Virus record (IMG/VR): IMGVR_UViG_3300043313_002154
Location: 1-22,142 of that record
DNA length: 22,142 nt
Reading direction: 5' to 3' (one strand)
Origin: a virus
In this document: positions 2,050 through 19,935 of the stretch, in pieces
How positions within the stretch are numbered: the stretch's first letter is position 1
How the letters are laid out: each line of letters begins with the position of its first letter
The notes under the pieces: generated by a model
What the model saw: only the letters and a program-made list of their open reading frames with translations
Database searches by the model: none
Told to the model about the DNA's origin: nothing
Program-made: the position numbers and the translations under genes

Positions 2050-2066
2050 CGTGTAGCTTGTACACG
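2050..2066 (+). promoter_or_regulatory. Leaderless-type promoter with overlapping palindrome inside the structural operon
   Basis: CGTGTA (2050-2055) and TACACG (2061-2066) form a perfect 6-bp inverted repeat with a 5-nt spacer. Inside it, TAGCTT (2054-2059) fits the actinobacterial -10 pattern TANNNT. It ends exactly 6 nt before GTG at 2066, the spacing expected if transcription starts on the start codon. No TTGACA-like -35 box is visible. The same layout occurs at 15985 and 19919 on the other strand. Confidence 0.45.
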
Positions 2067-2338
2067 TGATGGAGCCGTGGCATGTGGTGGCGGCCTGCTA
2101 TTCACTCGCTCTGTGTGTCGTCCTCGCCGCCGCTCTCGGAAACTACATGATTGAGCGATGGGCCAAACAGGAGGCACCGCATGCGCAAGCCAGCCAGCCA
2201 GGTACACCCCAAAGACCTCGCAACCGGCGACCGCGTCACCATCGCCGATGGGAGTGGCAACGAGCTCACCGGCTTAGTGCGTACCGGCGTCAGCGAGAAC
2301 AAGCTGGAGCGGTGGGTCGCCATGAAAGCCTTCGGTAA
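2066..2338 (+). CDS. Possible small membrane protein, leaderless start, overlapping the next gene
   Basis: This open frame encodes up to 90 residues. The first ~30 contain one hydrophobic segment (VVAACYSLALCVVLAAALG) followed by a charged cytoplasmic-type stretch. The start would be GTG 2066 or ATG 2069; neither has a ribosome binding site, but the upstream box fits leaderless transcription. The last 158 nt overlap the better-supported gene starting at 2181, and that part reads as an Arg/His-rich shadow, so the functional part may be only the first ~38 residues. It fills a gap between the head-tail adaptor and a small gene. If real, it is a regulated membrane protein made apart from the surrounding structural genes. 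It could also be a chance open frame. Confidence 0.35.
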   Translation: MMEPWHVVAACYSLALCVVLAAALGNYMIERWAKQEAPHAQASQPGTPQRPRNRRPRHHRRWEWQRAHRLSAYRRQREQAGAVGRHESLR

Positions 2339-15345: not shown

Positions 15346-15566
15346 ACGGGCATGTCGTCGTCGTCGGCTTCCGCTTTGGCCGGCTCTGGATGGTCGCCGT
15401 CGCGCAGCCCAGGCTCCATCGCTGCCAGGAGTTCCATGAGCCGGCCCCACTCTTCGACGGTTAGCGGAAACGGCCCGGAGAACTCGACCTTCGCCTTCAG
15501 GGTCAAAGGCAGCGTGTAATACCTCGTCGGCCGCTCCTGCTTCGGCCACTCGTCAGGCCGGGCCAT
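15342..15566 (-). CDS. 74-residue protein, function unknown
   Basis: ATG at 15566 overlaps the stop of the upstream minus-strand gene by one base (TGATG), so the two form an operon. A longer open frame to 15713 is rejected because its extra part is an Arg-rich shadow of that gene. The protein has strand-like sequence (RYYTLPLTLKAKVEF), a helix (TVEEWGRLMELLAAMEPGL) and an acidic tail ending ADDDDMPV. It is not recognised. Its stop shares the bases CTAG with the spike gene stop on the other strand, leaving no space for a separate terminator between the convergent genes. Confidence 0.7.
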   Translation of the reverse strand: MARPDEWPKQERPTRYYTLPLTLKAKVEFSGPFPLTVEEWGRLMELLAAMEPGLRDGDHPEPAKAEADDDDMPV

Positions 15567-15985
15567 CAGGCGGCCTGCGCGATGTTGCGGGTACGCCGCC
15601 ACTCGCGGAAGGCTTCGCGATGCTCGATGAAGTCGGCGAGCACCTCCTCGGTCAGCCCGCCTTCGCATAGGTTGACGTACGCGTCGGCGAACTGAGTGCG
15701 GTGAAGAGAGCACAGCGGCGCAGTGTTGGCGAACTCTTTCGCGCGGCGGTTCACCTCCGCGCGGGCCTCCCCCTCCGTGTATGGCATGCCCGTCGATGGG
15801 TTGTGCTCGAACGGCGAGAGCTTGATGACGAAGAAGCGCTCCGCCTGCTCCTTCTGGGTCTTCACGGCGTTGGGTGGGCAGCCGACACAGTAGCCGGTGC
15901 GGACGCCCTTCGCCCTGAGCTCGTGAGCGGAGTCGTCCTCGGTGGTAAAGACGGGGTCATTCTCGGGGTTATAGATCTTGGGCAT
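15566..15985 (-). CDS. 139-residue protein with possible zinc site CxxC...CxxH, function unknown
   Basis: The protein starts at ATG 15985 with no ribosome binding site but with a well-placed promoter-like box, suggesting leaderless expression. Cys33 and Cys36 (in GYCVGCPP) and Cys92 and His95 (in PLCSLHRT) could form one zinc site bridging two halves of the protein. Between them is a charged, partly helical region with FFVIKLSPFEHNP. The C-terminal 40 residues are helical and charged. No known family is recognised; a DNA- or RNA-binding or adaptor role is possible only by analogy with other small zinc proteins. It is the first gene of a two-gene leftward unit between tail and membrane-protein genes. 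Confidence 0.75.
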   Translation of the reverse strand: MPKIYNPENDPVFTTEDDSAHELRAKGVRTGYCVGCPPNAVKTQKEQAERFFVIKLSPFEHNPSTGMPYTEGEARAEVNRRAKEFANTAPLCSLHRTQFADAYVNLCEGGLTEEVLADFIEHREAFREWRRTRNIAQAA

Positions 15986-16007
15986 GACAGGAGTGTACAG
16001 CGCACAC
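15986..16007 (-). promoter_or_regulatory. Leaderless-type promoter with overlapping GTGT...ACAC palindrome
   Basis: On the minus strand, TACACT (15997-15992) fits TANNNT and ends exactly 6 nt before ATG at 15985. It overlaps GTGTGCGCTGTACAC (16007-15993), whose outer arms GTGT and ACAC pair. No -35 box is evident. The start has no Shine-Dalgarno sequence. The layout matches the sites at 2066 and 19919, though this palindrome is less perfect. Confidence 0.45.
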
Positions 16008-16096: not shown

Positions 16097-16144
16097 TGAG
16101 CCGAACCGACGTCAACTGGCCCAAGCTGACCCCTGGGAGCGAGC

Positions 16145-16444
16145 GTGGACCCGACCGACTGGGCCGGTCTACTGTCGCCGGTCGGATGCGTCGTCTTCCT
16201 CGTCGTCGCCCTCGCGAGAGGCTGGCTCGTGTCGGGGCGGGAGATGGACCGCCACGAGAAGATCTGGGAAGCTCGACTAGTAGAGGCCCACGAGCGCGAG
16301 CTGATCTGGCAGAAGACCGCCGAGACCCGCGAGGAGACTAGCCGGGATGTGGCCGATCAACTTCGGATGCGGCAGATCGTTGACGAGACTGTGGTCAAGA
16401 CAATCGCGGCGCTCCCACAGGTCAAAACTGCAGAGGGAGTCTGA
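16145..16444 (+). CDS. Small membrane protein with one N-terminal membrane segment, possible holin-type protein
   Basis: This 99-residue protein has one hydrophobic segment at about 6-31 (LLSPVGCVVFLVVALARGW) and then a long charged helix (residues ~34-90, REMDRHEKIWEARLVEAHE and onward), probably a cytoplasmic coiled coil. GTG 16145 follows GGGAGCGAG (16135-16143). Similar one-segment proteins followed by small membrane proteins occur beside lysis genes in many actinophages, so a holin or lysis-regulator role is reasonable but unproven. It is the first gene of a three-gene unit and begins opposite a divergent leaderless gene. An open frame at 16096 in another frame is a shadow. Confidence 0.75.
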   Translation: MDPTDWAGLLSPVGCVVFLVVALARGWLVSGREMDRHEKIWEARLVEAHERELIWQKTAETREETSRDVADQLRMRQIVDETVVKTIAALPQVKTAEGV

Positions 16445-16981: not shown

Positions 16982-17291
16982 CGACCGGCACTGTAGCTTC
17001 CCGCTCCAATAGTCCTCGCAGCTTCCCGTTCTCCCCTGTCAGGTCGTCCAGTCGGCCGACCAGCTCAGCAATCGTCGCCTCGTCCTCCTGGGATTGCGCC
17101 TGCGCCTCGGCGAGCAGCGTACGCAGGGCGTCGTTCTCGGTGGCTAGCTGCGCGTTCTCCCACGTCTGCTGCTGTCCCTGTGCGCCGATGCGACGTATCA
17201 GCTGGTCGATGAGCTTGCCCGGGTCGAGCGGGATCGACTGCGGCAGACCGGGCTCTTGCTCGTCGGTCACGGTCTCTTCGTCGGGAATCAT
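16881..17291 (-). CDS. Coiled-coil protein, function unknown
   Basis: This 136-residue protein starts at ATG 17291 after AGAAAGG, nine bases past the stop of the glycosyltransferase gene. Residues ~40-100 form a clear coiled coil with Leu and Ala in heptad positions (NAQLATENDALRTLLAEAQ, then ATIAELVGRLDDLTGENGK). The N-terminus is acidic, and the C-terminus is low-complexity (GQPGLASPDEPAAEH). It is the last gene of the long leftward unit. Its final ~33 codons overlap the membrane-protein gene on the other strand. A scaffold or partner role for neighbouring proteins is possible, but nothing shows it directly. Confidence 0.75.
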   Translation of the reverse strand: MIPDEETVTDEQEPGLPQSIPLDPGKLIDQLIRRIGAQGQQQTWENAQLATENDALRTLLAEAQAQSQEDEATIAELVGRLDDLTGENGKLRGLLEREATVPVATLTGDHQSVDGFLAMAAGQPGLASPDEPAAEH

Positions 17292-19398: not shown

Positions 19399-19663
19399 GG
19401 ACAGTCTTCTGTGCGAGCCGGTATGCGCCAGGGCTGGAGCGTCGTCGGCCGGACGCTATGGCCCGGGCGTCGTTGAGCGCGGTGTCGGCGCGGCTGAACG
19501 AGGCGGTGGTGCCCGCCTTCGCCCGCAGGGCAGCCAGGGTCAGGGCTGGATCCACAACGCATTCTGCGCGTCCCTCGACGGCTGCGGGGGTGTGGAGCGG
19601 GCAGCAGGCACCGGTCTGATAGGGCCGCGCCGGATCTGCGCCACACACATGACAACTAGCCAC
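19391..19663 (-). CDS. 90-residue zinc-ribbon-like protein
   Basis: GTG 19663 overlaps the stop of the upstream gene by eight bases. Cys4 and Cys7 (SCHVCGADP) with Cys20/Cys21 and His24 (GACCPLHTP) form a CxxC...CxxH pattern. A Cys-His-x-Cys-Gly-Ala start followed by a His-Thr-Pro-Ala turn is common in small proteins of actinophages and their hosts, whose role is not known to me. The remaining ~60 residues are helical, Ala/Arg-rich and polar. A metal-binding fold is likely; DNA, RNA or protein binding cannot be decided. It lies between the leaderless gene and the GT-B gene. Confidence 0.7.
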   Translation of the reverse strand: MASCHVCGADPARPYQTGACCPLHTPAAVEGRAECVVDPALTLAALRAKAGTTASFSRADTALNDARAIASGRRRSSPGAYRLAQKTVHG

Positions 19664-19919
19664 CGACGATGAGCTTCTTGATTCGCTTGTGGATGTGCTC
19701 GCTGACGATCTCTAGGGCCTCCTCAGAAGACTCCTGCGCCTTCGTCTCGTGGACGATCTCGCTGGACATGATGATCTGCCCGACCCAGCCCTCCATCGTC
19801 TGAATGGCGCGGGTGGACAGCAGTGACCGGGATGCCTCCTTCGGCCGTTCGCCCTCTTTCGCGTCGAGGAAAACGGTGCCGCTGCTGTATGTCCAATTCG
19901 TCGGGATCGTCGTAGCCAC
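19656..19919 (-). CDS. 87-residue protein with leaderless GTG start, function unknown
   Basis: The start is GTG 19919 with no ribosome binding site. The -10-like box TAAGGT ends exactly 6 nt before it. The N-terminus has short strands (TNWTYSSGTVFLDAKEGE) and the C-terminal half is helical and charged (SSEEALEIVSEHIHKRIKK). No known family is recognised. It begins a block of overlapping genes that includes the zinc-ribbon-like protein and both glycosyltransferases, so its promoter may drive part of the sugar-modifying block. Codon bias supports a real gene. Confidence 0.75.
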   Translation of the reverse strand: MATTIPTNWTYSSGTVFLDAKEGERPKEASRSLLSTRAIQTMEGWVGQIIMSSEIVHETKAQESSEEALEIVSEHIHKRIKKLIVGG

Positions 19920-19935
19920 GTGTGTACCTTACACA
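19920..19935 (-). promoter_or_regulatory. Leaderless promoter with perfect palindrome, shared with the epimerase stop codon
   Basis: TGTGTA (19921-19926) and TACACA (19930-19935) form a perfect 6-bp inverted repeat with a 3-nt spacer. On the minus strand TAAGGT (19931-19926) fits TANNNT and ends 6 nt before GTG 19919. Its first three bases are the stop codon of the upstream epimerase gene (19931-19929). No -35 box is evident. A protein bound here would block the -10 box. Confidence 0.5.

Follow-up and report, generated by a model that had tools for sequence, protein, structure and literature searches.

Leaderless promoters of actinobacteria carry a TANNNT box some 12 bp ahead of the start codon (PMC3160421). 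The operators of the mycobacteriophage BPs gp33 repressor, like the phiC31 and L5 sites cited with them, are a short, partly palindromic site repeated across promoters (PMC4557955), and the start-associated sequences (SAS) of cluster K mycobacteriophages contain the ribosome binding site (GGGATAGGAGCCC) and are asymmetric (PMC3203893). We analysed a stretch of 22,142 bases (the window), an entire IMG/VR record to which no named phage is a near match; the capsid protein it encodes shares 45% identity with those of Streptomyces phages Zuko and KimJongPhill, and 61–72% with those of several uncultured records. We found that three promoter-type sites described by a first-pass annotation (A, B, and C; Table 1) are indeed present, each with the form GTGTA-N5-YACAC overlapping a TANNNT box that ends 6 nt before a start codon; the box covers the left arm at A and C and the right arm at B. 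Site B also allows a second reading, TGCGCT in the common register with a start 7 nt ahead of the ATG. With boxes ending 6–7 nt before the start codon, all three sites resemble the actinobacterial leaderless promoters; however, the TANNNT signal of the latter comes without the conserved GTACAC found here (PMC3160421), and most copies of the element in relatives of the window phage have leaders.

Table 1. Positions of the element, its -10 boxes, and the adjoining genes in the window, and of the exact copies in three related records.
Record	Feature	Position	Strand	Description
Window	Site A	2051–2065	+	GTGTAGCTTGTACAC; perfect 5-bp arms in 15-bp element; adjoins GTG 2066
Window	-10 box at A	2054–2059	+	TAGCTT; 6 nt before GTG 2066
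Window	ORF A	2066–2338	+	read as 90 aa (see text); hydrophobic N-terminus
Window	Site B	15993–16007	-	GTGTGCGCTGTACAC; top window match to relatives-only matrix
Window	-10 box at B	15992–15997	-	TACACT; 6 nt before ATG 15985
Window	Gene B	15566–15985	-	139 aa; matches phrog_35236 (unknown function) weakly
Window	Site C	19920–19934	-	GTGTAAGGTACACAC; adjoins GTG 19919
Window	-10 box at C	19926–19931	-	TAAGGT; 6 nt before GTG 19919
Window	Gene C	19656–19919	-	87 aa; 43% identical to its homologue in G001; matches no family
G016	Copy	132	+	GTGTAGTCTGTACAC; immediately before GTG start
G015	Copy	23180	-	GTGTAAGCTGTACAC
G015	Copy	16739	-	ATGTACGCTGTACAC
G015	Copy	35577	+	TTGTACTGTGTACAC
G017	Copy	24876	-	CTGTACGGTGTACAC
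G017	Copy	36418	+	CTGTACTCTGTACAC

ORF A is doubtful as a 90-aa gene beyond 2181, because codon bias is lost in its frame after that position, where the next gene overlaps in another frame, and proteins B and C had no relatives among named phages or in a direct scan of viral contigs. The TAA within site C is the stop codon of an epimerase gene, and the start of this gene (20915, -) has a TANNNT box at 7 nt, no Shine-Dalgarno (SD) sequence, and no palindrome.

The arms are as rare in the window as the first-pass annotation had stated: exact GTGTA-N1..10-TACAC occurred at 2051 and 19922 only (0.00 expected, 100 shuffles), and GTGTA-N5-TACAC with at most one mismatch fits all three sites. An arm spacing of 5 was enriched (3 exact vs. 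0.03 expected; 10 with one mismatch vs. 2.1) and, when spacings of 0 to 14 were compared, was the only one with several exact copies. Of 44 occurrences of TGTANNNT, 7 were followed by at least five of the six letters of GTACAC, against an expectation of about 0.17. A weight matrix made from six sites of relatives alone gave window site B the highest score of 44,256 positions, followed by A and then C. This test is independent as regards the sequences, but the 15-bp frame was not chosen independently, the six sites having been found with the window pattern in mind. The scores of B and A were reached in 0 of 40 shuffled windows. A chance origin, with the palindrome arising from a -10 box and ordinary sequence, could account for the score of site C alone (expected 0.25 times per window) and would fit a first set of 14 related records, which gave one palindrome, located at other genes; but it is largely refuted by the relatives-only ranking and by independent recurrence in three relatives, and we consider it very unlikely. 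CRP-like sites have the consensus TGTGA-N6-TCACA, and we rejected this assignment, as both arms and spacing differ.

The three relatives (G015, G016, and G017) were obtained by a scan with a capsid protein alignment, and they contain six exact copies of TGTANNNTGTACAC, every one shortly upstream of a gene, with no exact match in 15 other phage records. The earlier conclusion from the first 14 records, that the palindrome was not conserved, was withdrawn once these copies appeared. Thus the element is shared, holds a fixed place relative to the -10 box, recurs upstream of genes in three relatives, and is absent from the other phages searched. The genes downstream encode a helix-turn-helix (HTH) protein in all three relatives, an exonuclease in two, and a scaffold-like protein before the capsid gene in one (the scaffold name rests on position and on similarity to the annotated scaffold-capsid order). 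The HTH genes that carry the element are orthologous (29–34% identity to the first; 51% between G015 and G017), and the orthologous exonuclease promoters also retain it, directly after a terminator-like hairpin; this hairpin is strong and ends immediately before the element (G015 35577, G017 36418). TANNNT is present at 6/6 of these sites and the full TGTAC-N3-GTACA core at 4/6, and the window sites retain TGTA/TACA or less; the left arm has a free first base and the right arm a fixed last C, which makes the symmetry imperfect and counts against an operator. At the G017 scaffold promoter the right arm is retained and the left is lost (GCATACCCTGTACAC; only TANNNTGTACAC kept). Two further arrangements were seen in these records: G015 33771 (+), upstream of a small gene with an SD, has GTGTAAGGCACAC, which is 13 bp long and resembles window site C in its tight reading, and a GC-rich hairpin upstream of the capsid gene (G015 16100–16190, -; G017 17140–17215, -) has a GTAC-rich, palindrome-like loop ending in CGTACAC, with no -10 box.

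An SD-bearing leader follows the element in 5/6 relative copies, and the link drawn at first pass between the element and missing ribosome binding sites is therefore incidental. That annotation had described all three window starts as lacking an SD sequence, which is correct for A and B; at C, an AAGG sits within the -10 box, 7 nt ahead of the GTG. The AAGG could favour a translation or RNA-hairpin signal at the start codon, but we regard this as extremely improbable: the relative copies lie 20–37 nt before SD-led starts, and a form of the element in another relative, G001, occurs with no start codon behind it (1948; a leader with GGGGGAG is next). Because the SD leader follows in 5/6 copies, we assign the element to the promoter and not to translation. 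Its likeness to SAS is one of position only, both being short repeats a few bases before phage start codons that are conserved between relatives; the element here has no AGGAG ribosome binding site and lies upstream of the presumed transcript.

We therefore describe a promoter module that would consist of the -10 box, the conserved GTACAC, and a presumed transcription start. RNA polymerase would use the TANNNT box as the -10 element, with no clear -35, and transcription would start directly after the element. The GTACAC between -10 and the start, together with the TGTA overlapping the -10 box, could form a two-fold site with the core TGTAC-N3-GTACA, on which a putative dimeric repressor would cover -10 to +1 and block the polymerase. 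On balance, and with some caution, we lean towards the three window sites being copies of one such dispersed phage promoter-operator module, with a phage or host regulator as its putative binder. Of the earlier proposal that the shared palindrome marks one regulator, the sharing holds up, being above chance and recurring at promoters of related phages, and one common regulator is what we infer from it. With three copies in the window, three in G015, and two in G017, one site stands at several promoters of one genome, as do the short, partly palindromic operators of BPs, phiC31, and L5. The sequence differs from that of BPs, however (BPs half site CGACATATGTCG), and the BPs OR lies between -35 and -10, whereas the site here lies between -10 and +1 and its binder is a candidate. 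A literature search with the exact operator strings gave nothing. Because it also precedes key genes of three related phages, the element is probably a genuine phage control site and not coincidental. It supplies a concrete control element for a group of actinobacterial phages that is uncultured, and its distribution suggests that accessory genes in the structural region and core genes may share one switch.

The HTH protein is a candidate binder because its own promoter carries the site in 3/3 relatives. By profile it is AlpA/excisionase-like (phrog_2620), and AlphaFold2 modelling (best of five models at mean pLDDT 85, the others at 54–66) gave a structure with only weak matches to DNA-binding domains of MerR type, among them those of RacA, MtaN, and BldC. 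The region expected to hold the HTH gene lies outside the window, which we count against the promoter-operator reading. The other candidate is a host TetR-type repressor; a phage-encoded TetR was ruled out, as TetR domain PF00440 had no match in nine phage records, a result that also weighs against the promoter-operator reading.

In the host case, phage promoters would carry host operators and hence be silenced or timed by the host. We searched 297 genomes from the family to which a Pseudonocardia MAG belongs, a host-type set that may not match the host of the window phage, and obtained 16 matches to TGTANNNTGTACACRTG vs. 4 for the reversed control. At the inspected loci (families assigned by eye, not by profile), 8/10 open a leaderless TetR-like gene and one a monooxygenase-like protein. 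In Pseudonocardiaceae (L053–L062), TGTACG(G/T/C)TGTACAC adjoins the start codon of leaderless TetR-like genes, some with a second copy just upstream. Here TGTAC-N3-GTACA lies over the -10 box and runs up to the start codon, an arrangement that the phage sites share in full or in part; this geometry probably serves autorepression there and would offer a precedent for the mechanism proposed at the phage sites. The identical form over the -10 box, and host-family forms that include TGTACGGTGTACAC and TGTACGCTGTACAC, also found in G017 and G015, speak for a host binder. The host sites differ in that they open the repressor gene itself, and the phage records have no TetR gene. Against a host binder, the spacer start is fixed as CG at host sites and variable at phage sites, and the element is absent from a provirus relative in a Pseudonocardia-genus genome; proviruses of the capsid family in host genomes also lack it. 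We consider a host binder unlikely, and the likeness raises the question of whether phages borrow host TetR-type operators.

Conservation at orthologous genes differs between lineages. The element is kept at the HTH and exonuclease genes of G015–G017 and is absent at B and C in G001, the nearest syntenic relative, so the conservation at the same genes on which the first-pass annotation had staked its claim fails there, and the element recurs at other genes in other relatives. G001 and G002 are the closest relatives to share genes with the window, and they lack the right arm. The G001 homologue of gene C has GTGTAAGGT-CATAAC-ATG, which preserves the -10 box with its 6-nt spacing but not the right arm (CATAAC for ACACAC); the gene at the place of B keeps TACACT-N7-ATG but not the GTGT arm. 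Across G001/G002, the non-palindromic (C/G)AT(A/C)AC follows 4/11 TGTANNNT and GTACAC follows none. As the two lineages have different forms at the same place, the stretch between -10 and the start is conserved within a lineage and different between lineages. Such lineage-bound specificity would fit a co-evolving factor, and the non-palindromic second form weakens a dimer-operator reading.

The main rival is a promoter class with no operator, in which TGTANNNT would serve as an extended -10 box and GTACAC as a discriminator that the polymerase, host or phage-modified, prefers, with the palindrome as a by-product. The TANNNT at every relative site agrees with it, as do the non-palindromic discriminator in G001/G002 and G015 34194 (+) and 25930 (-), which carry GTGTANNNT with no right arm; the right arm that outlives the left at the G017 scaffold promoter is as compatible with a promoter as with half an operator. 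Against this, we know of no sigma-70 promoters with a six-base conserved discriminator as a feature, the lineage-bound change points to a co-evolving factor, and no sigma factor or RNA polymerase match was found among the scanned phage proteins (a small HTH protein of G016, 552–1043, has a weak sigma region 4 match, below the cut-off). We hold this rival to be possible, if somewhat unlikely, and continue to prefer the promoter-operator module. More speculatively, and doubtful in our judgement, the six bases between -10 and the transcription start may be a lineage-specific tag (GTACAC vs. (C/G)AT(A/C)AC) read by a co-evolving phage factor that would control regulator, recombination, capsid, and accessory genes together.

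We also considered a single 22-bp element that would cover both the forward sites and, in flipped orientation, the B-type sites of G001; it was dropped, with poor leave-one-out scores for window A and C (0 and 9), and the 15-bp register was preferred because it better explains these two sites. Leaderless starts of G001 (L018 and L019; 6041 +, 26178 -, and 33158 -) share a longer non-palindromic repeat, about (C/T)TGTC(A/G)TGT-N8..9-TACACTTTT, before the ATG, and window site B carries CTGTCAGGT at roughly the same distance. Between the head-tail adaptor gene and the next tail gene of G001/G002 (L018 13825; L009 8300), a DNA cytosine methylase-like gene is inserted where the window has ORF A; it has its own leaderless promoter, in the manner of accessory (moron-like) genes with their own promoters.
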